Of a stretch of DNA of 64,000 nt, positions 6,568-53,893 are shown piece after piece (position 1 is the stretch's first letter; the number at the start of each line of letters is the position of its first letter). The translations under genes and the position numbers were made by a program. The stretch comes from Loxodes magnus (Eukaryota > Ciliophora > Karyorelictea > Loxodida > Loxodidae), in the NCBI GenBank assembly GCA_946699065.1, contig CAMPDV010000246.1, positions 248,001 through 312,000 on the forward strand, given 5' to 3'. The notes under the pieces were generated by a model, which was not told the origin of the DNA, searched no databases, and worked only from the letters and a program-made list of their open reading frames with translations.

Positions 6568-6651
6568 GCATGTGTGGCCGAGCGGTCCAAGGCGCTAGAC
6601 TCAAGTTCTAGTGGGAGAAATCCCGCGTGAGTTCAAATCTCACCGCATGCA
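6568..6651 (+). tRNA. trnL-CAA: tRNA-Leu(CAA), copy 1
   Basis: 84-nt type II tRNA. The acceptor GCATGTG pairs with CGCATGC, with an A discriminator. The anticodon stem CTAGA/TCTAG encloses CTCAAGT with anticodon CAA at 6602-6604, reading UUG. A long variable arm (GGGAGAAATCCC) and T loop GTTCAAATC are present. An identical copy lies on the minus strand at 40118-40201. Confidence 0.97.
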
Positions 6652-7670: not shown

Positions 7671-7687
7671 AACATCCTAATTATAAA
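7671..7687 (+). repeat. Left target-site duplication of element A (17 bp)
   Basis: AACATCCTAATTATAAA, repeated exactly at 8583-8599, brackets the zinc-knuckle element. Neighbouring bases outside the 17-mer differ. Confidence 0.85.
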
Positions 7688-8582
7688 TATAAAAATTGGA
7701 GTCTTAAAATCTTGTTCCCGGCTTTTTCTTGAGCAAAGAAGAGGAAAAAGCTCTAGAGAAAAAGCAGACATAAAAAAAGTATCAAGAGTCTTCTTCTCCT
7801 CACTAACAAAACTAATAAAGAACCTAATAACTATAATAAACACCTCCTAAAGTAATAAAAAGAAAGGAATCTAATATAATAACAGGAAAAGAACTTCCAT
7901 CAAAGATAATTAAAAAGGAAATCAATATTTAACAGTTAGTATTTGAAATATCCAATCTCTAGGAAGAGATTAAAGTGCTTAAGTAGGAAAATTAAGAACT
8001 AAGAAACTGATTATCACTTGGATAAGATAACTTAGAGATTAGAATTATTAATTAAGAAAGGGAACTCCAAGCATATTGGAACATTTAAAATGAATATAGA
8101 TAAGAAACAGCAAGGCTTGGAAATATCGTATAAATACAAGAGTTGGAGTTTATTAAGCAAAAGAATATTAGCACAAATATAACTAATTAGACAAGTTAGA
8201 TGGAATTAGAATAAAAAGAGGTTATAAATCGAAAACCAATCAGATAAGTAAGGAAGAAATGCTACTACTGTAATAGTAAGTGACATTTGTACAAGAATTG
8301 CTAAAAATTTTAGAATTTCAAGAAAAAATTTTGGCGTAAAGAATAAGAAAAATACTATAGGTCCTATTGCAACTAGCACGGAGATATTTACAGAAGAAAA
8401 TGATGTGAAGTACATTTTGAAATAATAAGAACAAGAAATCAAAGAAACTGAGAAGACCTTAGTGAAGATAATTTCATTAGAAAGTCAAGAATGATGAGAA
8501 GTGTTGCTGATAAAACAACTTATTTTAAAGGGTGTCCAGATTGGCACTGTTGAACATTTTAATTTCATTATTATTATAATAT
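7688..8582 (+). mobile_element. Zinc-knuckle retroelement-like insertion, copy A
   Basis: An 895-bp element between two 17-bp direct repeats. It starts with a leader of about 8 nt, holds one ORF on the plus strand, and ends in an (ATT)-rich tail at about 8565-8580. Copies B (27790-28634) and C (38677-39517) share the ORF, the A-rich leader, the tail and direct repeats of 13 bp. Long, variable-length target duplications plus a simple-repeat 3' tail are typical of target-primed (non-LTR) insertion; that mechanism is inferred. No reverse transcriptase, terminal inverted repeats or LTRs are visible, so it would depend on an enzyme encoded elsewhere. Confidence 0.75.
7696..8553 (+). CDS. Gag-like coiled-coil and CCHC zinc-knuckle protein of element A
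   Basis: A single frame of 285 codons fills the element and ends at TGA 8551-8553, which aligns with a TGA in copy B. Residues 1-80 are basic, Ser- and Gln-rich. Residues ~90-160 look like a coiled coil (EISNLQEEIKVL, then IRIINQEREL). A CCHC zinc knuckle follows with Cys189, Cys192, His197 and Cys202 (CYYCNSKWHLYKNC; one residue is a TGA-encoded Trp). The last 85 residues contain more Cys/His but no known domain. Zinc knuckles bind RNA or single-stranded DNA and mark gag or ORF1 proteins of retroelements. The start aligned with the ATG of the other copies is TTG here, so this copy may not be translated although its frame is unbroken. Confidence 0.75.
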
Positions 8583-8599
8583 AACATCCTAATTATAAA
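8583..8599 (+). repeat. Right target-site duplication of element A
   Basis: Exact repeat of the 17-mer at 7671-7687, directly after the ATT-rich tail of the element. Confidence 0.85.
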
Positions 8600-16276: not shown

Positions 16277-19200
16277 AATTTATGAATTAAAATAAAAAAA
16301 TCAATTTGTTAATAATAAAAATGATTATAATTAACTAAAATAAAAGCATACATTGAATTCCTTTCCTTTAGATCTAAAAATTAAATGTTATATAGAAGAT
16401 TTAATTTAATTTAATTTAATATTTTATAAATTTTAATTTTATGATTAATGGTAAATTTTAGAGTATAAGTTAAAGTTTTAATTCCACTCATTTCTTATAT
16501 TTAGATCCTGACTAGTTTTGATTCCCATAATTGTTTTATGAATTTTATTAAGGTACTTAAGGCTAAGTCTAATATTATTATTATGAAGGATATTAGAATT
16601 ATTATTGCAAAATATTTTAGGAATTCTATTAGAAGTTTTCCATTTAAGGCTATTATTATCCAAAAATTTAGTCATTATTCAAGTTTAGCTGTTGTTAATT
16701 TTAACTTTACTATTATTATTCTTATTTATAAGTGAAATTAATCTTTTTATTTTATACAGTAGTTTTTACTTCACACTACAAAATTAAATTCTAATTTTAT
16801 ACTGGTTATTATCAATAAGGTTAAAATTGCTGTTATTATTCGCCAAACTATTAACTTATATATACCTATTATTATTAATTCTAATAGCCCTATTGATGCT
16901 GTATTTGACCAGAAGTTGATAGCGATTATTTAGTACTCCCAACTTATGGAATAAAATTCTGCTATATAGTTTATTATGGTTGGATATTTTAGTATTATGG
17001 ATTTTGATATTATTAGACTGGATTTTAATATTATTAATTTTATGCTTAATATTACTGATTAGATGGTGGCTAAATGTTTTAGTTTATTTATTTATTTTAA
17101 CTTACATCTTGCTGATTAGTTTATAATTATTCATCAGAATTTCCTAAATTATATCATTACTATTAATCTTGATTTTAGTAATTAATTCCTATATTTTACT
17201 TTTAGATATTGCCAGTATTCTATTAATGAACTTATTATTTCTAATTTTATTGATTAGCCATTTAGTTTTATTAGAAATCAAAATCTGGTTATCATAAAGA
17301 TTCTTTTTTCTAAGTTTCTTAGGTAATATTTTCTAGCAAAAATTAAAAGCATTTATCTGCTAAAATTTAAGTTGGAACGTTGAAAAGTTCCTTAATTGGT
17401 TCAGAAAACTATTCCTTCAAGTATTAATCTATATAATTTGATTAATCAGCAAACTAATTCTTTAAACATTTGTATTTAGCTTTACATTGATACATGTTAG
17501 AGCCACATGTTTCTTATAATTCATCAACATCTTATAAAAGAGCTTTTACTTTTGTATCACTTTTTTCTCTTGAAGTATATTTTTTCCTTATTTCATTTAA
17601 AATCCAAGCAGCTATTGAGTAGACAGTTACTTAGAGATGTACATTTTCGCTTCCTTTGATATTATCTGCTTTTTCTATTAACTGCTTTGATATTTCAATT
17701 TATTTTTGAACAGTTTCTACTTCCTATTCCTAGATATTCTATAAATTATGAATCTCAGACTTCTCTTCTTCTTATTAAACTTTAACATTGTATAAAGAAG
17801 CTTATACAGGAATTTCATAAACTTACTTAGATCTAAGTCATGGATGATTGTAAAAATCTGCAAAGTTTATTCGTTTTTAAGGATTTGTAACGAGAAGTTT
17901 AGAAATCAAGTCTTTACACTATTATGAACAATTTAAAATTTCTAAGTTTGGACCTAACAGTTGATTTGCCATTAATTGATATTCTCCTGTTCCTTAGAAA
18001 GGCTTTTATCCTGCTAAAAGCTCATATAAGATGACTCCAGTACTCCATAAATCTACTTTATAATCATAGAGTGTATCTCCTTTTAAAATTTCATGGGCCA
18101 TGTAATGTCTTGTACCGCATTTAGTTTAGCCTTATCCTTCATCTTCAATTGATTTAGAAAGACCTAAATCAGAAATCTTAAGAATTGGCTTATTAGAAGT
18201 TCCACTCAATAATATATTAGCTGGCTTCAAATCTCTATGCATTAATTAGAAATCTTAAAGGGCTTTGAGTCCTTCAGCTAATTATACCATGAAATAAAGA
18301 GCCTAATCTTCGCTAAGTTTGTCTCCGTTCTTTTATAAGTAATCTTTGAGAGTTCCTCCTTCTGCGAATTCCATTACTAAATAGCAGTTATTAGCAGATG
18401 TGAATATTTCCTGTAACTAGATTAAGTTTTAATGAGTTATTTTATACATGTTATTTATCTCTCTCTTTCTAAGCATATTCGTAAACTAAGCTCCAGCTCC
18501 TAAATCATTTCTCATTTCTTTAATAGCAAATGGAATTCTTGGCTTGCTTTTATCAAAATACTAAGCATATCAAACACTTCCAAAAGCTCCTTTCCCTAAC
18601 TCTCTAATCAGAACATATTCTCCCACCTTTTTAACTTTAATCTTTTAAGGTTAGGCTTGCATTTTTAAAATTATAAGTAAAGTTTCAAATTAAAATAAAT
18701 TACAAGATAATTAAATAGAATCAACTAGAATTTTTCATTATGAAATCAATCAAAAAATTTATAAAGTAAATGAAGCTTCAAAGCTTTTTATTTAAATTTC
18801 TTAACCAAATGAAAAAAAAAGGGATTTAAGAATAAGAAAAGCTTTGAATAGTTTATATCTATAATGATAGAAAAAAGGAAAAATATTCAATTCAAAATGA
18901 GATGAATTGGGGATTTATTTGTAATAAGGCTTTTTAGTTTAATTTGTATTTATTTAATTTGGAAAATAATAGCAAAATTACACTTACAAGTAACTTATCT
19001 AATTTTAAAATGATTTAGGGATATTTTTAGAGATAAAGTTATATAATAAAATTGTTGAGAAAGCTATTTAACTTGAGCGAATAGCTGAAGTATCAATGAC
19101 TTTAAATTTAAAAAATTACTTAAAGATTAAATCCTTATGAATGTGTATTTATATGACCCACAAAAATAGAAGAAGAATCTTTATAAAATAAATCAATAAA

Positions 19201-20281: not shown

Positions 20282-20363
20282 GACACTATGGCCGAGTGGT
20301 TAAGGCGACAGACTAGAAATCTGTTGGGAATTTCCCGCGCAGGTTCAAATCCTGCTGGTGTCG
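20282..20363 (+). tRNA. trnS-AGA: tRNA-Ser(AGA), copy 2
   Basis: Identical over all 82 nt to the tRNA at 2501, including the AGA anticodon and long variable arm. A T6 run follows. The flanks resemble those of the minus-strand copy at 62306, not those at 2501. Confidence 0.97.
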
Positions 20364-24265: not shown

Positions 24266-27200
24266 GACAAGCAATAACTCTTAAAGAATTTATCACTAAG
24301 CATAATATTCCTATCTTTTTATTTAACTAAATGGTAAAAATCTTATGCTTGCTGTAAGTTGAATACTTTTCAATGTTATCTCTCTTCTTATTATCTTCAG
24401 TAACTTATCAAGATATTTAGAAAACCTTAAATTATTCTATTTCTTTACGACTAGAAGCATCTTCAAAGTATAATGCTATAAGCAATACATATTTAATTTA
24501 ATTCTTTCTAAACTTACTTAGAGTGAAATATTCTAAATTTAGTTATTAGGTATGATGAATAAAGTATAATCCACATAAATAGAAAGTTTGGTACATTTTC
24601 TAAATATAGCTATCTAAGTCACTTACTAAAATTACTTTTTACCAATTAATTTTTACTTTAAACTAAAATTTAGTTTGATTATAGAGTTTTTAAACTTCTA
24701 CATCTTTTAAATAAAGAAGAAATAAAAGCTGTTCTGCGTTTTGCTGGCTGAGATTATAACTTTTATTGATTATCTTTAGGAACATTTCAGATGAAATACA
24801 TTTGAAAAATTAGTAATTTTTATGATTGCGATAATAATTACTTTCCTTGGTTTATTAATTAAGGCATAATTTGCAAAACTGAGTGTAAAATGATACTCAA
24901 CGAAATTAAAAACTAGAAATATAGTTGATATTACTTCAAGCAGGGAAAATTATACCAATGAAATTATTAGATTAAATATATACCAGACAATATACTCTTT
25001 AGTTAGATTTTAGAGTAAAAGATTCTTAAATGGATATTTATTTATTTAAAATTTCACTTTCCAAGCAAATAAACTTATTAAAGCAATTACTAAAGATTTG
25101 GTGTTTTACTAACTAGTTGATAAGCTTTAATAGAAATACATGCTTATTATTTGTTTATTATTAACTTATTTAAATAAGTTTAGTCTATATGGTTTGATAT
25201 CATTTCTACTTAAGGAAAATTCTCTTCTGTATATATTCTTTTTAATATCTTTCTTTTAAATTTTTGTGTTTTTGATATTTAATCTTTGCTTCTTAAACAT
25301 TTTTATTAGGAAACTTATTTCTTCTATTTTTAATTTTTCTTAGTTACTAAATATGATATGGAACTTCTGTAAGTTATTGACAAATCTTGATAAAGTAATC
25401 CTTTTTAAGAGTTCTCTAGTTATTAAAAATATCTTCAAATATAAGTGTATAAAGAGTCTTAGAAATTAATAAAGAAAACTCAATTTATTTAAATAGTTTT
25501 TAAGTGAAAGGTATTAGCCTAATGACAAGAGAATAAAATTATTTAAGTTCTTAATATTTTCAGGATAAGATACTAAATTGATTCTATCTAAAGTGATATT
25601 GTACAAATAATGCTGTAATTTAAGCTTTGGATTATTTTTATTTTAATTGTATTATATTGGACTAAATCTTCTTTCATTTAAAAATTACTAGGTCTATAAT
25701 TTATTATCCAGCATAGCGAGAGATAAGCTTAAAACTTAAATCATCGTTAATGGTGAAGGTATAAATGTATAATTTCTAAGCTTCATCATTCCTTCGTTTT
25801 ATTAAAGAAATCATCTACATATTTTAGTATCTATTTCAGATATGAATAAGCACTTGCTTATGATTCTTTCTAGCCTATATATAAGCATTGCTTTAAACTA
25901 ATTATAAATGAAGATTAAATTATATATAGAGATTATATTTTCTTCAGATTGATCCTATTAAAGATATCTTATATGATTTTCATTAAAATCTAGTTATTAA
26001 CTTCATCTATACTTTCTCTTACTTTCTAAGTATTCTATTACTTAGATTGGTTATTAGCCTAAAGTTTTATATACCTATTAAAAGCTTTTTTATTTTTCTC
26101 TATTAATAGCTTTACTTATACTTTCTCATTTTTTAATTTGATTTATAAGCATTTATTAATAAGCGTAGCCTAGTTTCATTTATTTATAATCAATTAATAT
26201 AATTCTAATTCTTTTTCTTGACTATCATTTATTTTCATCTTGCTTAATGACAAATCATAACTTTAGAACTCCTTTCTCCGCAAACTCCATGATATCCTTC
26301 ACAAATTTTAGAATCCTTTAATTCCAATAAAAATATTGCTGTTGTTCATAAAATTAATTAGTAGATGCTTATCATTATCACTGTATTAGCATTTATTATA
26401 TTTACTCTTATTTATCATCATTTTTACTTCTTAGACACCTAAATCATAAAAGTCTCACATTTAGTATTTTCTATAGTAATACTTATAGATAGTAGTATAA
26501 GATTAAGCATATTAGGCATAGAATGTATTAACTAAATTCTAAAGTTACTTTTCATGTAAATGCTTAAAGATTTAAACAGAAGATAGCAATATTGAATCGT
26601 ATTTAGTTATACATGCTATTTAGTTTAGTTAAGAGTCTAACCTTTAAGTGCTAATAATGCTCAATAATATGATAAAAAATAGTTCTATATCAGTAATAGA
26701 AACCACTTAAAGAAGCATACAAGCACTAGTATAATAAAAGCATTTCTATCTTTATTATACTAAGAAAATAAAAAGATACTAGTAAGTTCATTAAGCATGG
26801 AGATACGTTTAAAGTACTCCAGTTTAATAATTAACTTAAATAAATAAAGTTCTTCATATAGCTTTATATAACTTCTACTTAATTAAGCTAGCTACTTATT
26901 AAATTACTTAAATTAAGGAAGAAACACTAAATTAGAAAAATTAACTTAAGATAGCATTAGTTACAGATAGAAATATACTAAAAGCAATTCTTATAGTAGA
27001 CAGTGTAGATTTATAAGCAATATTATAATATAAAAATTATTTTTTCTTGCTTTAAGCTTAATTTTAGAGAGGAAAGATAAATGAAAAGGAACCCAAAGAT
27101 TATCTTTTATTAAGATTTAAGGTTAAACTAATAATTTAAATTAAATTGAAGAGCTAAATAAACTTAGAAAAGATAGAAGCTAAAAGTAATTAAGAAGTTG

Positions 27201-27776
27201 GTTAGTTTAATTTAATTAAGGAAAAGTTTAAAACTAACCTTCATATATTTGAGAAGATTAAATTTGATAATTATATAAAACTAAATTAGAAGAATGAAGA
27301 TTCTTAAAAAGATATCAAAGGTAAAAATATAAAATGCCTTTGATTTAGTTAGCAAGCGTAAATGATAAGCCTGATAGAAGAATATGACAAGATTAACTAT
27401 TTTCGTTCAGTTGAGATTTAAAATCCTTCTTTAAGACTTATATAGTAAATATATTTCTAAAAATAACTAAAAATTGTTTTTTCTTTAGACAATTAAAAGG
27501 AACTAAAGCATTATTAAGTTATTTTAATATTTAATAATATACCATATCTTAAAAATACTATACTTATTTACAAAGAAAAATAATAAAAATAAACAAGAAC
27601 CCTTTTATGATAACAGAAATAAGAAAATAAAAATAAGGAAGCATATAACAGTCATATTTCTTAGATAGACATAAGTATATATAATAATTTGAATAGAAGA
27701 ACTAGAATTTATATTGGGCATGGAGTTAAGTTCATAAATAAGGCCAGATTAGAAGAATAAAAAATTCTTAGATTAT
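24266..27776. other. AT-rich intergenic region
   Basis: From about 25.9 kb it matches 49.5-51.36 kb in arm 2. No gene is supported. A short minus-strand stretch near 26.23-26.32 kb (IMEFAEKGVLK) resembles the kinase hinge but is too short to call. Confidence 0.45.
25900..27776 (+). repeat. Segmental duplication, arm 1 part b
   Basis: Matches 49.5-51.37 kb, for example the CTTAGACA..TAAATCAT..AAGTCTCA and ATAGAATGTAT..ACTAAA stretches, in the same order. Non-coding and strongly diverged. Confidence 0.6.
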
Positions 27777-27789
27777 AACAGAACATTAA
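27777..27789 (+). repeat. Left target-site duplication of element B (13 bp)
   Basis: AACAGAACATTAA, repeated at 28635-28647. The single-copy site is preserved in arm 2 at 51367-51379. Confidence 0.9.
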
Positions 27790-27856
27790 TAATAATAATA
27801 ATAATAATGATTTTAAAGTTTAAAAGTCTTGTAATACCTGGAATCTCAACCAGTTT

Positions 27857-28618
27857 CTTGCTGCCATTTTTTTAACGTGGATGGATACCACGACCGAGTT
27901 TTTTACGTGGGAGGTAACCACTAAAAATCTTCCGAGTTTCCAGCAAATATTTTTCTTTTATAGACTCCGGTTTCAGTAATTCATAGCCTATTAAGAGTTT
28001 TTCACATTCTTATTTGTTCTTTTATTTATATTTATTTCCAGCCACCACAATTTTTCAATAAATGTCATCTTGACTTGCAATACCAATATTGTTTGGGTTA
28101 TCTTTTCAAAGGTTTTTTCTAAAATACTTTTTTTCAATCTGATTTATTCGTTTTATTAAATCTTATTCAATATTTTCATCTTTCTGTTTTTCTTGAACAT
28201 CTTTTTAAATTAATTTCTTTTCAATGATCATGTCTTGATTTTGTTTAAGGTTCGTTTGAGACTATTAGTATAATTATTATTCCGCTACTAAATTATACTG
28301 GATTAACTGACGTCTAATTATTAACAATTCATTATTTTGATCATCTATGAAGTTCATTAATTCTCTGATTTTTTCTCCTTGGTTGTAAATTATTTCTTAA
28401 TACTCATAAATTTTATTTTTCATTTAGTCGAGCTATAAAAAATGTTCTGAATTCTCTCCAATCTTACCTGGATTCTTCTGAGCTGTTCTTATCATAATTT
28501 TACCTTCTGATGATGAGCTCGATTTCTCTTCTAGTTTTTGTTATTTAAGTAATTGTTTCGCCGCTTTCCTTTTTGCGTTTCTAGTTAAGTTTTTGGAAAG
28601 GCGAATAGATTGTTCCAT
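27857..28618 (-). pseudogene. Gag-like zinc-knuckle ORF of element B, frameshifted
   Basis: Starts MEQSIRLSKN; a Ser run (SSSSSEGK) near residue 36 and a coiled coil (for example EKIRELMNFIDDQNNELL) follow. The frame holding the zinc-knuckle region differs from the N-terminal frame, so at least one indel lies near the middle. In the C-terminal frame the knuckle reads YWYCKSRWHLLKNC: the first Cys is now Tyr. That frame ends at a TGA that aligns with the stop of copy A. Copy C carries the same N-terminal and knuckle regions. Function as for copy A; this copy is probably dead. Confidence 0.7.
27876..27921. other. Two adjacent hairpins in the 3' part of element B
   Basis: CGTGGATGGATACCACG (27876-27892) and GTGGGAGGTAACCAC (27907-27921) are short perfect-stem palindromes. 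Copy C has both at the same places with compensating loop changes. They may be a 3' structure used in mobilisation. Confidence 0.5.
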
Positions 28619-28634
28619 TTTTTGAAAGTTATTT

Positions 28635-28647
28635 AACAGAACATTAA
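28635..28647 (+). repeat. Right target-site duplication of element B
   Basis: Exact repeat of the 13-mer at 27777-27789, next to the 5' end of the element. Confidence 0.9.
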
Positions 28648-31600
28648 ATTTAAAGGATTTAGTTAATATAAGAATATAATGAAGTGATAGCTAAAGTTTA
28701 TTATGGGTATAGTAAAGATAAAACTAAAAGGGAAAAAAATATTTAGGGGAATAGAAGAAGGAATCGAAGCTTTTAAAGGATATATCTTGATTCTTAGAGA
28801 ATAAAACTTACATTTTTGTAATTATCTGCCCAATTACAAAACTTATTATAGAAAATAGTGATTTAAAACATTTAAGGAGTTTGAAAATAATCGTAAAAAT
28901 AAGAGTATATTAAGTCATATATTCTTATACACTTAAATTTAAAGAAGGCAAGGTTTATAATAATAAAATAGCTATACAGAGCACTGGAGTATTCTAAACA
29001 AAATTATAACAGAATTTAATAAATTAAGAAAAAGGATAGTTTAAATCAAAATTGGGAATTGTGCGGAACTTATCCAGAATTTTTTTTCAAATTTCCCATT
29101 AAAAATCTTTAAAGATTGAGAAGGCTTTAGAATCTCAGAAAAAAAGCTTCTTAGTATAAACTTAAATAAAAGAGAAGAAATAAATTTTAAATATTAAGAC
29201 TTAAAAAAATCAGCAGAATCAAGACCAAGATGAAATTTAAATAATATTTCTAAAAGTAAACTAAAAGCTAGAAAACTATAAAATTTAATTCTGAAGGATA
29301 TTAAAATTCAAAAAATATAAAAAGAACCAGAACCATTATAAAATTTACTCATTGCAAGATAAAAAAAACTCTTGAATAGCAACTATCTAAGTTAAATAAT
29401 TAATCTAATATATTAATTATCTCTTATAACTATTCTAACATTCTATTATTTAAATAAAATATACGAAATTATTTGAATATATTTAGCAAGACTTCATCTT
29501 GTACTACATTCAAGTAATTTTAGTTTATGAAAGCTTCTTAAGTTTGGAATAAATATTTTATATTTGATTATAAAATACTTTTAGATATTACTGTAATCAA
29601 TTCTGGATTTTAGTATATTAAGAACTATATTAAAATGTGTGTAAAACATTAAAGTATATAATTAAATTTAAATCAAAACTAACTATGTATGCATTATGTT
29701 CCTTAAATCCAATTACTTGAGAATATTCAAATATTCCGAAAAATTAATTAAAAGCCAAAATTTTTGCTCTCTTTGTTATCATCTACTTAATATGGTCAAT
29801 TCATCATTATATTTAAAGCATTTACCTTAAATAGTTGTAAAAGAGTTTTACCAGTTAATTTTTGTTTCTCTTTTTCTTATTTCTAGTTTTATCAATCTAC
29901 TTTTACCTTTTTTTAATTTTTCTTATTCAGACAACTTTTTCATTTTTTCTATTCTTTTAAAATAACATCCTTTGAGCTTTTGGAGTTAGCTAAATGCTTT
30001 ATAATTAATTTATATATAGAAAGCATACTTTTAAAGTAAATATTTTACTTTATTCTTCTACAATAAATATGCTTTTTACAATAACTTACTATATTAAGAA
30101 ATATCTTTATATATCTACGTAATTGTCTTATAAAATTTATAGTCAGCATTTTTATATCTTATAAACCATTTACCTAAATAGCTATCTTCTAACCCCTAAT
30201 TAAACTTCTAACATCTAATGGATTTTCTTTATACTACCTTAAAATAATTAATTTCTAAGGCTTGTCATTTAATTAGTAGGGTATTCTTTGATTTATTCTC
30301 CTAATAAAGCTATAAAATAATGCTAAAAAGCTGCTTATTTTGAAATATAATTTAAATGTATTGGCTTTATACTTTTACTTACCTAGCTAAACAAGGCTGT
30401 AATAAATTTCTAGTTTAGTATTTAATTAAATAATTAGTTTATTAAACTAAGTTTCAGTTACTATGATCCAAACTTTATTTAGTTAATATGATTTAAAGGA
30501 GTTATTAGAATTAAGGATTATTCATAGAAGAATTAATCAGCAAAAGATCTAAATACCTTAATAATTATAGGGTAAATAACTGTGATATTTTGCTTATATT
30601 GGTATAATAAAATAGGTGTAAATAGGTAGATTTATAAATAATTTACCAGCTTTATAAATCTAAATTGAAAGCAATGCTATCTATTACAGTAGAATATAAA
30701 TCATATGTTTTATTATCAATATCATAGAAGGAAAGAACTATTTAAGACAATAATGCCTATCAACTAGGTTGATAGATTGGAATCCGTTGGAAATTTATGA
30801 TGAAAGTTAAATTGCTATTCATAGCTTGGTATAATTAGCTTATAAATTAAAATGATAAAATGTTAGCATTTTATTTAGATAAGTCTATATATAAGTAATT
30901 TACTCATCTCAGACTTAAAACTTCTTGCACATTTAAGATATGATATCTATATAATAGTAAACTTAGATATGATAAAAGCCTAGCAAATTCCTTTTTTAGT
31001 TTCATAGACCAAATTAGTTTTAGCATCTTAATATAATTCTATACTTGTAAAGTAAAGCAAAGTTGGATATTAACTAACTATGAAATTCAGAAAAGAAAAT
31101 AAAAGGATTTATCAAATACAGCATAACAATTTGCTTATATATCAGTCAATTTATTAAATAAGTAATATTTTAATTGGAAAGAAATAGACTGAATATAATT
31201 AAACTAGCTAAAGAAGAGAGAATGTAACCAAAATAAAGAAATTAGATAAATAGTGATAACTATGATTATAGTAAAGGACTTTTACTATTATTTACTCCTT
31301 TAATTATCTATCTTCAATATTAGATGCAACTAAAATCTCTTAAACTTTATGATTCTAAGTATTTATAGAGCTATTAAAGATTCTTAACTCGATAGATACA
31401 TCTATTTCAATTATGCTAGATTATCTATAAGCTATTATCTTATGATTTTAAGGTTAAGACTAAATAAGAAATAATTTAAAATGCCTTGAAATATAATTAG
31501 AAAATAAGCGAAGCATATCTGTTATTTAAATACTTAAGAACTGAAGTAATTAGCACTAAAATTATTCAAAATTCGAATAATTAAAGTAGAGAAAGGCTAA

Positions 31601-32387
31601 AAAAATGGAAATAGTCAATTTAAATTAGTTTTTTCCTTTTTAGAGATAATATTTTCTATAAACAAAGGAGTCTTAAGTGTAAGTTATGCTTAAGTATATC
31701 ATTTCTTATATACAACTTGCTTCTAGATTAGGGTTATTAAATAAATGCTCTGGATTTAGAAACTTGAAGTATATTAATTTATCTTCTGATGATTATAAAG
31801 AATGGGAAAAAGACCAGAAGCAGAGATTTAAATATAATAAAAAGTTAAGGTAAAAGTAAAGCTTTAGAATACATACAAATAACTAGTTAAGGAAAAAAGA
31901 TTAAAAATATTTTGAGAAGAAAGTACTACAGCGCTCTTCTAATAAACTACTAAATATAAAACTAAAACTTTTCGTTATTTTCATAAATTAAAAAGACAGA
32001 TACTTCACTTATAAACTTTTATAAATATCTTATATTTTAAAATTTTAACTAAAAATTAGATTTGAAGCTACAATTTATTTAATTATCTTAGTTATAACTT
32101 CTTAAAGGTATTTTCTTAAATATAGTCAAACATTTTTATAAATTAGTTTTAACTCTTTAATCTCTATAGCTACTAAAATATTAATAAAGTTGGATACTAA
32201 AGTAGAATCAAACTTTTGCTATTAGTTAATATTTTATTAGCTTCTCTTTCTACTTCATCTATTAGCTTTTGTAGATTAATCTCTCTTATATAAATAAAAA
32301 GAATCAAATAATAGATTTTTCTAACGATTTCGTTTAGGTTTAAATGTCATTTTATTTAATCTCATAATAAGGTTTGATATAAATAAA
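28648..32387. other. AT-rich intergenic region, matches arm 2
   Basis: Diverged counterpart of 51.38-55.39 kb with many indels. The only recognisable item is a decayed tRNA-Ser at 30746. No gene supported. Confidence 0.5.
30746..30822 (+). pseudogene. Decayed tRNA-Ser, arm 1
   Basis: Begins GACAATAATG after TTTAA and keeps traces of the anticodon arm and variable arm (AATCCGTTGGAAATTT). Base pairing is destroyed. A better-preserved relic sits at the homologous place in arm 2 (53817). Confidence 0.5.
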
Positions 32388-35300
32388 ATGAGAGTGTCAG
32401 ATGTTTCTAAGACATCTTCGTAAGCAATCTTGTTATAGAATTCAGCCTCTTTCTAGTAGCATAAGGATTTGGATGTGTAAGAAAGTTAAATACTTGAAAT
32501 AAGATGCTTCTCTAGGAGTAAAATTAAACTTTTGCTTTACTTGCTACTTTCGCTCCTTTCAGGTGGAATTGTAAGCTTAATTTGCTACTGGAAACCTTTT
32601 TTGTCAGCTATGCTAATGCATAAAAAATGTGCTCCTGAGGATGCAGAAGTTTTATCAATAAAGAACTAAGATGGAATTTAAGAAAATGTTAAAGTGAAGA
32701 CCATTCATCTAAACTCAGAATGTACAGTTTCAAATAAATAGCTAAAAGGAGTTGTTTAAATATTCAAGTATAGATACCTTAAGTACTATTACGATACTCA
32801 AAATAGAACTTTTTTTCCTATCTTTTATGAGTACGAACAAAAATTCTAAGAGTATAAGAACAAGTAAGCTATGAAGCCTGAATAAATATAAGATGTCAAA
32901 AAAATATTTGGAAAGTGTAAGATGGAAATCAAAGTGCCAAACATTTTTATCCTCCTGTAAAAAGAAATACTCACTCCTTTTTACCTTTTTCAATTTTTTG
33001 CTTTCATCTTGTGGATGTTTGAAGAGTATTTTCTGTATGCATTTTGCCTTCTGTTTGTTTCTTTTGTAGGTTGCGCTATAAATTTGTATGAAACCAGAAG
33101 AAACCTTATTAACTTGAAGGAGATGACTTAAAAGTCTTCAAAAGTACTGATATTTAGAGACAACAATTGGCAATTATTTTCAAGTACTGAATTAGTTCCT
33201 GGCGACTTAGTTAAGATTTAAGACTAAAAAGTTCCATGTGATTTAGTTGTAAAGTAGGGATAAATTATAATTGATGAATCAACTCTTACGGGAGAAAGCT
33301 TCCCAGTAGTCAAAGACAGTATTCCAAATACCGACCAAATTTACAAGCCAGAACAATATCGTTAGCATACACTTTTTGAAGGAACTAGCGTTATTCAGAC
33401 TAGAGGTGAAGCAGTTGGAATAGTAATAAGAACAGGATTTTCTACCATTAAAGGAAGATTAATAAGAGGAATAATGTTCCCTAAACCAAATAACTTTACC
33501 TTTGCAAAAGACAGCTTTAAATTTGTACTCGTAATGTTTATGATATCAATAGGTGGTCTTATACTAGCAATTGTACTTTTTTGTGATTAGGGGCTATTAA
33601 CTGAAGATATTGTGATAAGCAGCTTAGATTTAATTGTTATTACGGTTCCTCCTGCACTACCTATGGCTATGACTATTGGGACTTCATTTGCAATTACAAG
33701 ATTAAAAAAGTTATCTATATCTTGTATTAGTCCTCCAAGAGTCAATGTAGCAGGGAAAGTAAGTATGTTCGTGTTTGATAAAACAGGAACTTTAACTTAG
33801 GATGGAATGGAAATTGTAGGAATAAGGCATGTGGATCAAAATCACTAACTTACCCAGAAAATTGAGTAAGTTAGCGCTTTAAACAGCCTACTATAGGAGC
33901 TTAACCTACAAGAATAATAAATAGCCAGTCAACCTAACTTGTAACTTAAATTGTTAGAAAGTTTAGCAGCTTGTCACAGCCTTAATATGATAGAAGGGTT
34001 ATTGATAGGAGATAATTTGGAAATTAAAATGTTTTAAACTACAGGATGAAAGCTAGAATCAAGTGAATCGGATTCCAAAAGATTGATAATACCTGTTCTA
34101 GGTGACTAAATATTTAAAGAAGCTACTTAGGTGCTTAGAGTTTTTCACTTTGATTCCAAACTAAAAAGAATGGGAATTATATCTAAAAATACATGCGAAA
34201 GTAGTTAATTCTATTTCTTTCAAAAAGGAGCATGTGAGTCAGTAGTGGCTAATTGCTTGGAATATACAGTTCCAAAGAATCTTCAATAAATTTACAAATA
34301 TTATACATAAAGCGGGTATAGAGTGCTGGCTTTAGCTTACAAGCCTCTTTAAGAGTGTCCAGACTTAGAAAAAGTAACGTTATAAGAAATAGAAGGTTCT
34401 CTTATATTTCTTGGTCTGTTAATTCTAAACAATCCTATGAAGCCCGAATCAACTGAGGCTATTGAGATACTTCATTAAGCTAATATAAAAACCTTAATTT
34501 CAACTGGTGATGATGTTTTAACAGCAATAGCGATAGCAAGAGAAAGTAGTATAATAGGAGAATTTGATTCTGTTCATGTTGGAGAGATTAACTAAGAAAA
34601 GGAGATAAAATGAACTCTGTATAAACCTTATTAAAGCTAGTCTCAAAATAGACTTGAAGAAAGTAATTTTACAAAGAACTAATTCAAATAAAACTAATCC
34701 ATCTCTCAGACTCAAGATAATACTGATACAATCGAAGAGGAAGTTTGTAGTAACTTGTATTAAATTATATCTGTATTTTCCTAAGAAGATCATAAAAAGG
34801 AAAAGCAATGACTAGCAATAGTAGGAGACGCTTTTAATTATTTGTTGCAATCTACCTAAGAAAGTTCAGAAAATTAGCTCATTTTAGATTTGTTGACTAG
34901 TAAAGGAAAAATATTTGCTAGAATGTCTCCAGAAAGCAAGACTTAATTGATCTGTTTACTTTAGGAAACAAAATAATTAGTTGGAATGTGTGGAGATGGA
35001 GCTAATGACTGTGGAGCCTTAAAATAAGCAGATGCAGGAATTTCTCTTTCATAAGCTGAAGCATCAGTTGCAGCTCCCTTTACGTCCAGGATTGAACACA
35101 TCGGATGCACTTCAATGGTGTTAAGAGAAGGAAGATGTGCATTAATTACCAGCTATCAATGCTTTAAATTTATGGCTTTATATGGAATGATTTAGTTCAC
35201 AACAGTTGTTTGCCTTTATATTTTGACAAGTGGCCTATCAGATTACTAGTTTTTATGAATTGATCTACCACATATTATTCCACTGGCCATTAGTATGGGC

Positions 35301-35834
35301 TATTAAGGTCCATATCAAAAACTGACAGTTAAAGAGCCTATAGGAGGCTTGATTACTTTTCCAATCCTAGCTTCGATTATAGGTTAGACAGCAATTTAAT
35401 TGTTAGCATAAGCTCTTGTTATATACGCAATCTTACCATCTTGGGATGGATATGAAGAAATAGATCCAAATAATATTGATTTTATTGAAAACTTTAGATG
35501 CTAGGAAAATACTATTCTCTTCACTTATTCACTTTTTATATATTTAAACGTAGTGCTTGCATTTAGTGAAGGAAAACCCTTTAGATCTCCAACAATAAAA
35601 AGCAAGAAGTTTGTAATAGTATTTTCAGTACTCTGGCTAATGGATTGGTACATTCTATGGTTTCCTGCCTTTTGGACTCGTGATGTATTAAAAACAGAAG
35701 ACTTTTCTTATGCATGGAAAGGATATATCTTCATAGAAATTTTCGCACACTTGGCTCTTGCTGTCTCTTATGAATTCTGGGGAATTCCCTTTATGGATAG
35801 ATGTTATAGATCGTGCCGAAAAAAGAAGCAATGA
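32388..35834 (+). CDS. P5B-type ATPase (ATP13A2/polyamine-transporter family), copy 1
   Basis: 1148 residues, no intron. Motifs in order: N-terminal hydrophobic hairpin ending YWKPF, TGES at 301-304, the P5B signature PPALP in M4 at 421-425, DKTGTLT with the phosphorylated Asp464, TTG followed by a TGA-encoded Trp, then [11 protein letters not shown] (Asp870) and a C-terminal membrane domain ending RSCRKKKQ before TGA. P5B pumps act in late endosomes/lysosomes and several move polyamines to the cytosol; that function is inferred from the family. All catalytic motifs are intact. Five Trp are encoded by TGA or change to TGA in the paralogue. Start: first ATG in frame, matching the start at 55395 in copy 2, which has exactly the same length. 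Confidence 0.95.
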
Positions 35835-38663
35835 GAAACAATTAAAATATACTAATTAGTAATTTTATCCTTTTTAACCTCCATAAAATACTTTAAATTA
35901 CATTAAGTATCATAATAACCCAATCTATTAAAGATAATAAAGCTATGTCTAACTAATAGAGTATAACTTAAAGAATATATCTTAAGTATATTTCACTATC
36001 TAACTGCTTATTATAGATTTATACCTAGTTTACTATTCAGCTTATAATACTTAGATTCATTATGATTTTTATAGTTTTAAAAGGAAAAATTTTATTAGAA
36101 TTTATAAGCTGATTCTCCTTTTATGCTTATAAGCAGTTCATTTTAACATTTCTATAACTAGTTAAACAAGCTTAGACTCTAAAATAAAATAAATATAGTT
36201 TCCTTCATGCTAGCAATGAAAAAGAGAGTATTAAGATATAGAAAATAGGAAATAGTGCTATTGTAAAATGAAATGGTTTGGATATAGTAGTTATAAGTTA
36301 TATTCGAAGATTAAAAGATAAGTGTAATATTTCATATGTTATAGTCATAAACCATATTCAATGTATTATAGTTATATCTAATCAGTTTATTCTCTGTAAT
36401 TTGCATGGTATCCTTTATAATCATGATTTATAAGATGCTTCAAAAAAGTAGAAATATAATAATTCGAGATTTAAGATAGATTACTCCTTAGAACTAAATA
36501 GAATTGTAATAATCAAAAATACACAAGCTTAGAGAATATAAATGGATATAACTTTGAAGTATTAGGTAATTAAATTTAAGAGAATCATAATAAAAATAAA
36601 AGGATTAATTTCAAATAAGATTCTCATATAACAGTACAAATTAACATTAATACATTAATGTTATTAAGAAGTACTTAATAGATAAAATAGATTTCTCATC
36701 ATATCATTAAATTTAATAGCTATAATTAAATCAATGCATAAATTGAAAATATACCAGTTAAGCGTAGCCACCCTTTCTTAAAAATAAAGGAAATTCTTTT
36801 TATTACTTTAAAGAGTTATATATAGTTTTAAAGTCTTTAATTTTTCATTCTTAGTTTCAAAAGGTGTAAATGATTACCCCCTATTTTTTTATTTTCCCAA
36901 CTGTATCATTAATCCTAAATTTAATTTTAAATACTCTTTTCTTCCAATTATCTCCTAATATTTCTTAGTTTATTAGATTATTAATTTTAGCTATTTGGTA
37001 TTTATTATATTTTAGCTATAAATTTCAAGTATAGACATTAAGATGCTTCTGATAATTTTGCTTTATAAAGTATACAAGTATAATTTTAAAAGCGTATTAA
37101 ATGTCTAGTTGCTTTCCTACTTTACTTTTAAGTGTAAAATAAAATGTAAACTATTTACTTTTTGGGAAACTTAATAATTTCAAAATCATCCTTCATATTT
37201 AAGTTTTCTAACTTACCACTAATCCATAATTTCTTGAATGATTTCAGCTTTTAAAATTGATGAGAAAATTAGAATTTCTCAGCTTCTTAGTTGACTTAAT
37301 TAACTTAAGGAAAATAAGAAGCAAAAGAAATATAAGAAAATTAAGATTTAAAACTAAAGAAGATTCTAAAGATAAAGTATAGAGATATAACTGTATAATT
37401 AGAATATTAGCATATGCTATCTTTATCTTAATTAATCAAATATCTACATTACATCTTCATTTCTATCTATTCTTTATTTTCATTTCCTATATTGCTTACT
37501 TTTTGCTTCTTCTTTAAATCTCTTTCTATTCTTTGCAAATTAAAATTCTCCTATTTACACTTAAGGATTTCTCATAGTAGAACATAACGAAAATGTATGT
37601 TTAGGAATTTAAGATTGATAAAGGATTAACTAACTAACTTTACACTTAATTAATAATTATTCTTATAATCTTCCTTAATCATAAATAGCATGTTTTTATA
37701 AGAAACTACTAAATATACTAATTATACAGATAATCATAAGTGCTAAATATTAAAAATAAAGTAGTTATGTGGGACTAACTGAGACTATTTAAAAGCTATA
37801 AGAAAAGGTTTAATTGCTATTATTTTAATAATAATAAGGAACATTATAAGTAATAATTAAGGATAAAGCTATCTATTTTAGTAATAAATCAGATATAATC
37901 TAGTTACTTTCAGTTATATATATATCATATCACTATTTTAAATAATAGTCTTAAATATCTATTTAAAATTAAAGCTATGATTGAATGCATTTTCAATAGA
38001 ACATAACAATTATCAAATTTTATAGCTTTATCCAAATACTTATAAAATAATAAGTTACTAATAAAAACTTAAGAAAGTAAAGCTAATATATGTTATGCTA
38101 TTTCTATTTAAGAAGCTTACTATGTTTAAACCTTATAATCATAACATTATCTTAATTTTTAATATACACTCTAGTAGTTTGCTTTATTTAATCAGTATAA
38201 ATAAAAAATTAAAATTAAGTTAAATGATTTTAACCTATAATGCATTTATGGAGTTTTGCTAGCCTGTATAATTTTAATTAAAAGGTTATAGTAAAGGCTA
38301 AAATAAAATTATAGTAAAAGTATATTAAAATTCTTTTTAATTATATTTATTTCCTTTATAAAGATCAGCTTAACAAGCACTAGCTTCAAAAGTAAGTTAG
38401 AGTCCTCAAGAAATAAGTAAAAATATATTTCAAAGATTTAAGTAAATTTTGCTTATTTATCATGAATAGTAACACATTTCTATATAGTAAATTAAGTTTT
38501 AGGCTTAATTCTATAAAAATATTTTGATTGCCAAACACAGCAGTTCCTCCGTTACAAAATTAAGGAATCAGAACATAATATGCAACCAATTTAATTTTAT
38601 ATGATAATAAGAGAAAGCCAATATAATAACTCTTAACTTAAATAAAAAAATGAAAATGAGATA
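35835..38663. other. AT-rich intergenic region, matches arm 2
   Basis: Counterpart of about 58.84-61 kb, diverged. No gene recognised on either strand. Confidence 0.5.
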
Positions 38664-38676
38664 ATTAAATTTAATA
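38664..38676 (+). repeat. Left target-site duplication of element C (13 bp)
   Basis: ATTAAATTTAATA, repeated at 39518-39530. The low-complexity target makes the exact length uncertain by a few bases. Confidence 0.7.
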
Positions 38677-38739
38677 ATAATAATAATAATATACTTAAAG
38701 TTAGTAGAGTTTTGCATTCTCTGGAATTGCAACCAGTTC

Positions 38740-39504
38740 CTGCGGACAGCTTTTTTAACGTGGGTGTGATCCACGACCTTTTTATTAAGTGGAAGGTTAC
38801 CACTGTAACCGTTCAAGTGGTCTTGCAAAAAACTTTTATTTGTAGATCCCTGTTGGAGTTATTCATAGTTTATTGAGTTGTCTCCATGTTCTTTTCTGCT
38901 CTTATTCGTTTATTTTCTTTCATTATCAACAGTTTTTTAAAATATGTTGATTTGATTTGCAACATCAACAAAGTTTGTATTATTGTCTTTATTTCGTTCT
39001 TTTTTATGATAATTTATTTTCTATATTTTCTAATCTTTTAATGAAACTTGTAGCAATCATTTCTTTTTCTGGATTCAATTCTGTTTTTAATTCTATTGGT
39101 ATTTTTTCTATTTCCATTTTTGTGTCGTATTTAAAATTTTATTATGATTAAGTTCAGAGTTATTCTTCCGTTATTAATTTGCTACAAATAAGTTATCTTC
39201 TAAGTATTAGTAATTCGTTGTTCTAATCTTCTATATTACTCATTAGTTCCCGTATTTTTTCGCCTAAGTTGTAAGTTGTTTCTTCATAATTTGAGATTAC
39301 TTTTTACATTTAGTCTAATTAAATTTAAAGTTTTTGATTAGTTTCGTTTTTAGGTTAACTTATCTCTATTTATCCTACCATAACTTTACCTTCTGAAGAA
39401 GAGCTTGACTCCTCCTATTGTTATTATTTTTTCTAAATTTCTTTTGCCGCTTTTTTCTTTAGGTTTCTAAGTTAATTTTTTGAGAGTCGAAGAGATTAAT
39501 CCAT
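38740..39504 (-). pseudogene. Gag-like zinc-knuckle ORF of element C, frameshifted near 3' end
   Basis: Starts MDQSLRLSKN, then SSSSSEGK, a coiled coil (EKIRELMSNIEDQNNELL), and an intact CCHC knuckle CWCCKSNQHILKNC in the same frame as the start. A one-base deletion near 38790 relative to copy B shifts the last ~30 codons, and the aligned stop TGA has become TGC. The N-terminal frame is open for about 230 codons before that, with Gln and Trp read from recoded codons. Confidence 0.7.
38759..38804. other. Two adjacent hairpins in the 3' part of element C
   Basis: CGTGGGTGTGATCCACG (38759-38775) and AGTGGAAGGTTACCACT (38788-38804). Same positions and stems as in copy B, with different loops. 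Confidence 0.5.
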
Positions 39505-39517
39505 TTTTTTTCACTGT

Positions 39518-39530
39518 ATTAAATTTAATA
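39518..39530 (+). repeat. Right target-site duplication of element C
   Basis: Exact repeat of the 13-mer at 38664-38676. Confidence 0.7.
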
Positions 39531-40117: not shown

Positions 40118-40201
40118 TGCATGCGGTGAGATTTGAACTCACGCGGGATTTCTCCCACTAGAACTTGAGTCTAGCGCCTTGGACCGCTCGGCCACACATG
40201 C
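40118..40201 (-). tRNA. trnL-CAA: tRNA-Leu(CAA), copy 2
   Basis: 84 nt, reverse complement identical to the tRNA at 6568-6651, including the CAA anticodon. The flanks are not alignable beyond a few bases. Confidence 0.97.
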
Positions 40202-46330: not shown

Positions 46331-46592
46331 TCTATCTTTAAAGCAGAATTATAAAAGTATAATTCGGATCTTATTATTCAAATTTAAAAGAAATAATATC
46401 AAAAAGAAAAAGTTTGATAATTATTAATAAATTAGAGAACTGTTTAAGAAAAGAAAGGTTCGCAATATAAAATTTTACTTTAGATCTAAAAAATAATTTT
46501 TTGAGAAGAGTTTTATTAATTTTATATGATATAAATTTTAATTTTATGATTAATGGTAAATTATTTATTATAAGTTAAAGTTTTAACTCCGC

Positions 46593-48767
<2,175 letters not shown>

Positions 48768-49499: not shown

Positions 49500-51366
49500 T
49501 AATATTAAGAAGTTAAATAGACAAGATTTTATTTATTCTTGCTTCTTTGCTTATTTAACTATTAATAAATTATAAAAATTGCTAAAATGAATAATAATTT
49601 TTATAGTTATAATGCTAGTTTCATATTTCATATAATATGAAGTAATCTATTTCCTTTTCTTCTTAATATTTATTAATTTTAAATAGTTTATACTAAATAG
49701 AAGGAATATAGCTATAAGCTAATATTTTAGATATTTCTATTTAAGGTTTTTTATGTTCTTCGCTATTTATTTATTTACTTATAGTTTCTCATCTTACACT
49801 TAGATATAGCTTAGATTTCTAATTAATTTGAAATATAGCCTACTTATATATATATTAAGCCATTTAAATAATTTAATTTTCTTTCTTAGCTATTATTTGT
49901 TTTCCTCTTCTTAATGCAAAACTATTAATTTATAACTTTTATTAATTAAATTTCCTAATATCCTAAGCAACTTTTAAACTCTTTTAAATCATCATAAAAG
50001 ACTTGGCTGGTGCTAGTAAATTTACCAAAGATATCTATATAATTATCTCTGTATAAGCATTTATTATCTTTTAGCTTATTTATTAACTTATTTTTTACTA
50101 TTATTATCATTAATTTTTATTTCTTAGACATTTAAATCATATAAGTCTCATATCTAACATTTTAGTATACTGTTAGATTTAAGCTATGATAGTGATATAA
50201 AACTAAAAACATATGGTATAGAATGTATAAACTAAACTAAAAGTCTTTTATATTATATTTATCAGTTAAATACTTTAAAAACTAATAGGAGATAGCAACA
50301 GTGAGTCATACTTAGTTTATATATGCTATTTGTTTAATTACTAAGTCTAAGTTTTAAGTATTAATGCTATTCGATTATATTATTAAAAAGAGTTCTATAT
50401 AAGAACAAAAGCCTTCAAAGAAGGATATAATCCCTAACATAAGAATAATAATTCTTCTTCAATCTTAAGTATACTCTATTAAATAAAAAGATGCTTCGAA
50501 ATAATTAAGCAAGTAATACTTTTAAAGTATTTAGTTTAGTAATAAACTTAATAGAAGATAGCTCTTCATATGGATTTAAATTGTTTCTACTAAGTTATTT
50601 ATTTATTAAATTTCTTAAACTAAGGAAGAAACACTATTTTAAAAAATTAACTTAAGATAGCATTAATTACAGATAGAAATGTGCCAAGAAGTTTATTATA
50701 ATAGGCTGTGATTATTTATAAGCAAAATCATAAAATCAGAATTTTTTTTCTTGCTTTGAGTTAAATAAATAGAGATGAAAGAGAATTGAAAATGAATTTT
50801 AAAATTATTCTTTATTATAAATTGAGACAACATTAATAGTTTAGACTAAATAAAGAACTCAATAAATTTAGATAAGATAGAAGCCTAAAGTAATTAAGAA
50901 ATTATCAAACTTAAATTAAAAAAATGAATTTTCTTAAAAAGATATTAAAGGTAAAAGCATAAAATACCTTCTAATTAACTAGCAAACACAAATTTTAGCC
51001 ATGATTAAAGTTATGCATTTAAGAAGAATATGATAAGATTCATTATTCCATTGAGTTAAGATTTAAATCCTTCTTTGAAGATTTGAATGGTAAATCTATT
51101 TCCAAAAATCATTTTAAATTGTTTTTAAACTTATATCATATAGCAAAATTAAAAAATCTTAACTTTATTACAAAGATGAAATAGATAAAAGACTTTTGAT
51201 GACAGAATTAGAAAATGAAAAATTAGGAAACATAAGACAGTCACATTTCTAAGATAGAAATTCGCATATTTAATAATTTGATTAGAAGAACTAGAATTTT
51301 ATATGGACATGGAGTTAAATTCATAAATAGTGTCAGCTTAGAAGAATAAATATTTCTCAGGGTTAT
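49500..51366 (+). repeat. Segmental duplication, arm 2 part b
   Basis: Counterpart of 25.9-27.776 kb. Joined directly to part a, without the 6.5 kb found in arm 1. Confidence 0.6.
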
Positions 51367-51379
51367 AACAGAACATTAA
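51367..51379 (+). other. Empty target site matching element B
   Basis: AACAGAACATTAA occurs once here, with left flank GGTTAT and right flank ATTTAAA, equal to the two outer flanks of element B in arm 1. This is the pre-insertion allele. Confidence 0.9.
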
Positions 51380-53816
51380 ATTTAAATAGTTCAAACTTTC
51401 AAATATAAAGAATTTATTTAATAGGAATAAATAAAGTGGCAGCTAAAATTTATCATGAGAATATTAAGATAAATGTAGAAGGAAAAAAATCTTTATTTTA
51501 AAAGCATAATAGAAGAAGAACTAGAAGCTCTTTAAGGATATATCTAGCTTCTTAGAAAATAAAATTTAAATTTGATCTATTAAGTTGAACAAATGCCAAA
51601 TGTATTGTATAATCTAAAGCTTCCAAACATCTTAAATATCCTGAAAATAGCCTAGGGAATATGAAAATTTGAGACCAAATCTTTGATATATTTAAACTTA
51701 AAGAAAGCACAATTTATAATAATAAAATAGTTATGCTTAATTCAGGAATATTTATATACTTATAACAGAATAAGAGAAATTAAGCAAAAAGTATTATTAA
51801 AATTAAAATCTGGTTATTTGTTACGAAGCATAGCCAGAAATTTTCGTTATTCGTAGATTTAATTCCCAAGTTTCTTGAAAAGAATCTTTAAAAATATGAG
51901 TCAGAAAGATTTTAAACTATTAGAAATAAAAAATAGATCATCTTGATATAAGCTTAAATAAAGAGAAAAAATAAATTTAAATATTACAATTTATAAAATA
52001 AAAGGAAAAATAGCTTTTTCAAGTTCAAATTAGATGAGCGAGCAATTATTTTATAAAAAGGAAAACATTTAATCAGCTAAAATTTATAGCTTCAAGCCTA
52101 CATATTAAAAGATATTATATCTTTAAGAAATAAAACCAAATATTATAAAAGAAAAAATAATATTAAAAAATGTAATATTCAAATATAATAGATTCATCTA
52201 ATAATATTTGATAAATCATATGATAATTATATATAGCATGTTACGAAACAGTAAAATAGACGAATAATAAAATAGAATATCTAAAAAACGAAAAATAAAT
52301 TCAAAATTTATTTGGAGTTTTTATAGAAATTAAATATTGCAAGGTTCAATAAATGAATTTAAATAAGAATCTGATATTAAGAGGAAATTTATTAAAACGC
52401 TAATTAAAAGCTAGAAGGCTATAGAAATTTGGTTCTCAAGAACATTAAAATTTTTTGAAATATAAATAGAACCGAAATAAATATTAAAAATAAGTGTATT
52501 ACTAACTAAATAAATGAAATTCTAGTATAATAATTATCAAGTTAAATAAATAGTCCAATATATCAAATATCTCTTTATGCTTAGCATTCTATTTTTGTTT
52601 TAAAAAACGAAATCTTAAATTGAATTATTTAATAAGACTTTAACTTGCAATGCATTTAAGTAAATTTCATTTATGAAAGCATTTTAAGCCTAAAATAAAT
52701 GTTTTATATTTGATTAATAAAATATTTTAGATATCATTACCATCAATTTTAGATTGGAATAAATTAAGAATTATATTAAATCCATATAAAACTTTAAGTA
52801 TAAAACTAAAATTTAGATAAAAACACCTATATATATTTATATATCTATTTATTTGAAAGTATGCTAATATTTCAGAAAAATTAATTTAAAAATCATACTT
52901 TTCCAAATATTTATTCTCTTAGCTTGTTTTTATCCCCAAATTATCTATTTTATTACTATGCTTTTTATATTTTTTAAGTTTTCTAATTCAAGCAACTTTT
53001 TAATTTCTGTAATTCCTTTAGAAAGCTCCTTTGAGTTTGCTTTCAGTTAATAAAGCTTTTATAATTAAGTATATAAAAGCAAACTATTAAAGTAAATCTT
53101 TTATTCTATTCTTGTTTAATAGATTTCCTTTTTTCCTAAATCTTGCTATATTAAGAAATATCTTAATATATCAATTTCCATACTTATCCAATTCTAATTT
53201 ATATCTATTTATTAAAAGCTAAATATTCTTAAATCATTTATCTAAATAGCTATCTTCAACTCAAAATAATCTTCTCTTCTCTAAAGATTTACCTTTATAC
53301 TACCTTAAAGTAATTATTTTCTTATATGTTTATTATTTTATTAATAGGTAACTTTGATTTATTCTCTTATTTAAAGCTATAAATATTACTTAAGCTTTGC
53401 TACTTATTTAGTAATATCCTATATTATTATTGCACTTTTGCTTAATTAGTTAAACAAATCTATCATAAATTTCTAGTTTAGGATGTTAATTAAGTATCTA
53501 GATATTAAACCAAATTTAGAGATACTAAAGAATATTTATGATTGAAATTAGAATTAAGGAATGTGACTCAAAGGAACTATTAAAATTATAGATTATTAAT
53601 AGAAGACATTAGCCAACATAGGATCTTGAAAGTTTAATAATTATAGGGGAAATAATTTAATATCTCATTTATATTGGTATAGCCAACTAAGGGTTAATGG
53701 GTAACTAATAAATAATTAAGTTTTATAAATCTAAATTAAAAACACTACTAATGATTAGAGTAAAATGCTTATTATAAGTTTCATTGTTAGCATAACAGAA
53801 GAAAAGTGTTATTTAA

Positions 53817-53893
53817 GATACTAAGACTGATTATCTAAAACGACAGATTAGAAGTCTGTTGAGAATTTACCATGCGAATCAAAGTCTCATTTA
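53817..53893 (+). pseudogene. Decayed tRNA-Ser, arm 2
   Basis: Clear relic of tRNA-Ser: GATACTAAGACTGATTATC, then ACGACAGATTAGAAGTCTGTT around the anticodon (AGA still readable), then a broken variable arm and T arm. The acceptor stem no longer pairs at the 3' side. It lies at the position homologous to 30746 in arm 1. Confidence 0.7.

Follow-up and report, generated by a model that had tools for sequence, protein, structure and literature searches.

The three short units analysed here in Loxodes magnus very probably represent three families, all belonging to one superfamily of non-autonomous non-LTR retrotransposons with ORF1 only, whose copies would arise in trans through target-primed reverse transcription (TPRT). 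They lie within a window of 64,000 nucleotides, i.e. the whole stretch of DNA that was analysed (G000:C246:248001-312000), taken from an assembly of 705,730,643 bases in 7,843 contigs. The macronuclear (MAC) assembly of L. magnus is given as 706 Mbp in the main-text passages of PMC11441545, according to which Loxodes undergoes no extensive genome editing, retrotransposons abound in both nuclei and the interspersed repeats are mostly unclassified. The assignment of the first unit (A) draws on 39 further copies, their junctions and their reading frame, that of the second (B) on 39 further copies and that of the third (C) on 39 further copies and 1,184 exact 5' starts.

Target sites and insertion of the units

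Unit A (7688..8582, plus strand) is bracketed by the 17-bp target-site duplication AACATCCTAATTATAAA, which occupies positions 7671..7687 on its 5' side and 8583..8599 on its 3' side. Unit B (27790..28634, minus strand) lies between copies of TAACAGAACATTAA at 27776..27789 (tail side) and 28634..28647 (5' side), a direct repeat of 13-14 bp as the first T of TAACAGAACATTAA overlaps the given end of the unit, and unit C (38677..39517, minus strand) between copies of the 13-bp sequence ATTAAATTTAATA at 38664..38676 (tail side) and 39518..39530 (5' side). These data bear out the coordinates assigned to the units in the original prediction and identify all three as insertions with direct repeats and (ATT)n tails.

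The direct repeats scored at least 10 in 21 out of 22 loci (eight of A, eight of B and six of C, the three window copies included; mean 14.5), as compared with 38 out of 300 swapped-flank controls (mean 7.6, maximum 13). The repeats flanking the A, B and C loci exceed chance, and copies without them, named beforehand as evidence against mobility, are confined to a single A locus (L048) that falls short of the threshold; the ORF, far from occupying one conserved non-mobile locus, is spread across many contigs of L. magnus. The repeats vary in length between about 10 and 19 bp, and among the 17 of the 22 sites used for this tally the start of the duplication tends to TTAA (T in 14, T in 12, A in 13 and A in 11), the ATT tail blurring the boundary of the duplication by a few bases. 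An (ATT)n tail was present in all A, B and C loci read, behind a constant 3' end.

Two segmental duplications are found in the window, one of them diverged (26059-38423 versus 49719-60910, 66-82% identical) and the other 95% identical (16362-18818 versus 46474-48922). They carry P-type ATPase-like and kinase-like ORFs, and several of the ATPase ORFs read in frame across TGA.

Empty sites demonstrate the insertion of B and of one A copy. Unit B is present in one arm of the diverged duplication and missing from the other, where the paralogous segment (51250..51530, plus strand) contains TAACAGAACATTA only once, a 22-nt difference adjoining the site. The A copy in locus L046 sits inside a fragment of LINE-3b, an element described below, and five related LINE copies (L063-L067) are continuous there, with a single copy of the duplicated bases; L062 is the same locus as L046. 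For C, the paralogous alignment ends before the unit and the alignment of flanks gave nothing clear.

The Rfam search of the window retrieved five tRNA genes, none of them within the units: three for tRNA-Ser(aga) at 2501-2582, 20282-20363 and 62305-62387, and two for tRNA-Leu(caa) at 6568-6651 and 40118-40201, all in short duplicated stretches that are 87-95% identical. Targeting to tRNA genes, considered for the proximity of A and C to tRNA-Leu, was discarded, as just two of the 22 loci have a tRNA gene within about 1.5 kb, and these two are window copies.

Families, copy numbers and age

B and C, both on the minus strand, are 67% identical at the DNA level over about 850 nt, and comparison of A with either of them retrieved nothing beyond short, chance-like pieces of DNA. 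The proteins of A (window copy) and B (copy L003) are nonetheless related (E 8e-11, 30% identity over 82 amino acids around the zinc knuckle). The units had been regarded as three copies of one family; this has to be replaced by three families of a superfamily, each with many copies. Searches of the assembly returned 892 (A), 3,467 (B) and 1,408 (C) first-look candidates, which are not copy counts. The best 40 matches of each family, window copy included, are all near full length; being the best matches, they come from a ranking that favours complete copies. Identity of the other 39 was 96-97% for A, 95-97% for B and 99-100% for C.

Family C was further counted by exact motifs. The 23 nt that open its ORF match 1,184 places genome-wide (586 on one strand, 598 on the other), and a 23-nt motif of its 3' hairpins matches 1,056 places (530 and 526), the reversed controls giving none in either case. 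Pairing by hand in contigs C1-C40, among the matches listed (100 starts), assigned a same-strand start to 66 of 79 3' motifs, 65 of them at a distance of 721-725 nt and one at 674 nt, leaving unpaired 13 of the 79 3' motifs and 34 of the 100 starts. As most 3' motifs are paired, C is rarely truncated at its 5' end, and the motifs and starts left without a partner could stem from mutation of either 23-mer no less than from truncation. In contrast, several LINE-1 copies end at differing points (L010, L013, L026 and L034). Pieces met by chance in the fetched flanks include a C copy in L003, cut by the end of the locus, and a 97-nt A-like piece in L045. Family C seems to have jumped very recently.

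A fourth gag-only family, D, was encountered in L041:1-660 and L064:2827-3172, with the same hairpins and an end of AAT repeats instead of ATT. The match of the D copy in L064 is confined to the 3' half and, together with the C and A-like pieces met by chance, counts against a general claim of rare truncation. A further unit, E, occurs in L010 (upstream of 1327, in the orientation of the reverse transcriptase) and in L026 (upstream of 640), the two being 78% alike. It has a knuckle-like motif, recognised by eye, and an ATT-rich end, and stands directly before a 5'-truncated LINE-1, and either an insertion into the tail or a chimera would account for the arrangement.

3' ends and the search for an enzyme donor

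The two 3' hairpins foreseen for B and C were confirmed as GTGG/CCAC pairs, and a third hairpin (CTGG/CCAG) exists besides. In B the first (GTGG-7 nt-CCAC) maps to 27907..27921 and the second (CGTGG-7 nt-CCACG) to 27876..27892; in C the corresponding hairpins map to 38789..38803 and 38759..38775, all on the minus strand. A has a single hairpin (8528..8551, plus strand), with a 9-bp stem in L046 of which one base is changed in the window copy. The stems are nearly invariant across three compared sequences; in RNA folding, B and C do not stand out (z -0.5 and -0.4) and the short hairpin of A does (z -2.9).

LINE families with reverse transcriptase and endonuclease are abundant in the L. magnus genome (PMC11441545). 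Our search with the RVT_1 profile yielded 3,403 candidates, of which the best 150 were scored, and the 30 loci fetched constitute one family, here named LINE-1, of about 5.5 kb and ending in a 3' hairpin and (ATTT)n; the one copy read has a CCHC motif before the endonuclease in the same frame. LINE-2 likewise ends in (ATTT)n. A common 3' end with LINE-1 or LINE-2 as donor is not supported, given that their tails are (ATTT)n and their ends differ from those of the units. The LINE-3 clade comprises 2,275 candidates. Within it (L062-L077) the terminal hairpin is similar and the tails differ, LINE-3a ending in TTAA repeats and LINE-3b in (ATT)n. LINE-3a copies are 93-97% alike and LINE-3b copies 82-89%, the group L062-L064 excepted. 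Reverse transcriptase matches of LINEs also recur at a spacing of about 2.5 kb (2,532 or 2,504 nt) in G000:C5131:5395-26349 and G000:C20:2028-7877, which suggests tandem arrays.

That an enzyme encoded elsewhere mobilises the units had been proposed from the outset, and we infer the same from the lack of an enzyme domain in units that nevertheless bear TPRT-like marks; on the other hand, the LINE-1, LINE-2 and LINE-3 stretches examined revealed no donor that shares the gag or the 3' end of the units. This missing parent may reflect the scoring of only the best copies.

Two origins of the enzyme have to be weighed at this point. The units could have arisen, in the manner of HAL1 or TRE5-A.2, by deletion from a host LINE that is autonomous and has the same ORF1 and 3' end, in which case the mechanism would be as proposed above and the lineage would not be independent. 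We regard this as a serious possibility falling somewhat short of an even chance: HAL1 and TRE5-A.2 did arise in this way (PMC5753468, PMC5391098), a rarer LINE with the same end could rank behind the gag-only copies among the best 40-150 matches scored, and the 3' motifs of C without an exact start nearby, 13 of the 79 listed, are the best leads to such a donor. Nevertheless, the ORF1 of LINE-1 (one copy) and of LINE-3a look unlike the gag by eye, no knuckle being recognised in the sequence upstream in LINE-3a, the ends of LINE-1, LINE-2 and LINE-3a differ from those of the units, and a single recent deletion would not yield several diverged ORF1-only families.

Alternatively, the LINE-3 clade could be the donor, the units having its (ATT)n tail and mimicking part of its 3' end. 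The clade is abundant, and the LINE-3b end indeed consists of a hairpin and (ATT)n. We compared 10 ends in 45 pairs over the 30 nt immediately preceding the tail, using 1,000 mononucleotide shuffles for each and no correction. The uncorrected values among these 45 pairs were p < 0.001 for B-C and for A-E (L010), 0.002 for A-B, 0.018 for A-E (L026), 0.022 for A-LINE-3a, 0.042 for B-LINE-3b and 0.049 for A-C; A and C did not fall below 0.05 with LINE-3b. The matches of A to LINE-3a and of B to LINE-3b would fit this origin, but 16 of the 45 pairs reach 0.05, including LINE-1 with LINE-2 and LINE-2 with E, and the test is not specific because AT-rich ends match easily. In addition, LINE-3b, with copies only 82-89% alike, is too old for a present donor of the young family C, and the younger LINE-3a ends in TTAA repeats. 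A LINE-3 donor is therefore doubtful.

A further, rather improbable version of the trans-mobilised superfamily that we favour is an old split system, in which an almost leaderless gag-only lineage would have radiated independently, with the enzyme supplied by a LINE unrelated in gag and gag possibly lent back to it.

Coding capacity of the units

Each unit is nearly all one ORF, open only if TAA and TAG are read as glutamine and TGA mostly as tryptophan, and in karyorelicts TAA and TAG are sense codons and TGA is either tryptophan or stop (PMC11441545). Only about 5-8 nt precede the start. The short A-rich leader noted originally thus exists as a few A residues followed by ATG, but at this length the ATG stands practically at the 5' end. 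The window copies of B and C have 11 and 6 extra 5' nt, respectively, relative to most other copies. Among the three window copies only C is intact: an inserted T destroys the ATG of A, and B has a frameshift as well as Tyr in place of the first knuckle Cys. The frame was kept in all six C copies read and, with its ATG, in six of eight A copies (L048 among these, without the first Cys); in B it was kept up to the knuckle in two of eight, one of them with Tyr for His. The ORF of C runs from its ATG over 38680..39504 (minus strand, TAA and TAG read as Gln, TGA as Trp), and its 3' end is putative since conservation between B and C continues beyond the TGA that the two share (codon 213/214), after which no further TGA is in frame in C.

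The CCHC knuckle anticipated in the ORF was recognised in all three families: as CX2CX4HX4C in A (CYYCNSKWHLYKNC, 8257..8298 with approximate ends, plus strand), as CWYCKSRWHLFKNC in B (copy L003) and as CWCCKSNQHILKNC in C (window copy). The accompanying coiled coil was not proven, AlphaFold2 on a three-sequence alignment predicting helices only (pLDDT 48). Comparison of B (L003) with C (L053) gave a dN/dS of 0.30 over 275 codons, with 0.18-0.64 by block in codons 1-240 (one of six blocks saturated) and 1.23 in codons 241-280, the region holding the hairpins, all of them rough values because pS is 0.64; against family D we obtained 0.24 and 0.26, from a broken D copy and a poor alignment. As judged from these substitution patterns, purifying selection has acted on the protein since B and C diverged and, together with the CCHC knuckle, this coding selection would be compatible with an ORF1-type RNA-binding gag. 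Pfam searches of P0002, P0004 and P0005 retrieved only matches below the cut-off and no enzyme domain, the units thus lacking by Pfam a reverse transcriptase of their own such as autonomous TPRT elements have. A search of about 5.8 billion proteins with the B (L003) and C gags retrieved no relative for either at an E value of 0.01 or lower, a negative of little weight because the database may not translate this genetic code.

These data bear on the possibility that the units are SINEs with a functionless ORF, which we consider very improbable. They are short, high-copy, rarely truncated and enzyme-less, as this would require, but the B-C dN/dS indicates constraint that is lost only in codons 241-280, the knuckle is common to A, B and C, and Rfam found no match in the units and hence no pol III-derived head. 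That the units are processed pseudogenes, retrocopied from a zinc-knuckle gene of the cell, is scarcely credible. Retrocopying of cellular mRNA would likewise leave direct repeats and a short 3' tail, but the tail here consists of (ATT)n instead of poly(A) and follows a constant hairpin-bearing 3' end, and several diverged families are each multi-copy, with 1,184 exact starts for C.

Mechanism and comparison with known systems

Under the preferred reading of an ORF1-only superfamily inserted in trans, the gag protein of the element would bind its own RNA, whose 3' hairpins and (AUU)n end would be offered to an endonuclease/reverse transcriptase that a LINE encodes elsewhere; this enzyme would nick AT-rich, TTAA-like targets and start reverse transcription there. 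With the ATG only about 5-8 nt inside the element, transcription would have to start either in the flank or at the extreme end of the element. Family C, with more than 1,000 nearly identical and rarely truncated copies, offers a clean system for the role of gag on a non-LTR RNA in trans, is suited to ask which 3' signal the LINE enzyme reads, and provides a way to study how an element uses a code that reads TGA as Trp as well as stop.

The main-text passages of PMC11441545 describe L. magnus LINEs, non-LTR elements of the same genome which, unlike the units, are 5-6 kb long and encode reverse transcriptase and endonuclease; gag-only units are not mentioned in these passages. In the open-access literature searched we found no description of the units, which may be among the unclassified repeats of PMC11441545.

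Several known elements resemble them. In Dictyostelium, TRE5-A.2 has ORF1 without ORF2 and relies on another element's ORF2 protein for its mobilisation in trans; it derives from the autonomous TRE5-A.1, with which it has sequence in common, and inserts near tRNA genes (PMC5391098). The units would likewise be non-LTR and ORF1-only, and their mobilisation in trans would follow from the missing enzyme; unlike TRE5-A.2, they have no parent among the LINEs examined and a tRNA gene near only two of 22 loci. HAL1 of mammals also encodes only ORF1p, depends on a LINE and arose several times from L1 (PMC5753468). It would share with the units the ORF1-only organisation and differs from them in ORF1 type and tail. 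The ORF1 type and the poly(A) tail are features of L1 itself, unlike those of the Loxodes units. HeT-A of Drosophila is abundant, encodes no reverse transcriptase and takes it from another element (PMC5537684). It serves chromosome ends, whereas the units are scattered single insertions with target-site duplications and form no terminal arrays. The Gag of HeT-A has reportedly been studied in PMC3776773. ORF1-only elements are therefore already known as such, and what is new in Loxodes is the host group, the near-absent 5' leader, the (ATT)n end and the existence of several diverged families.
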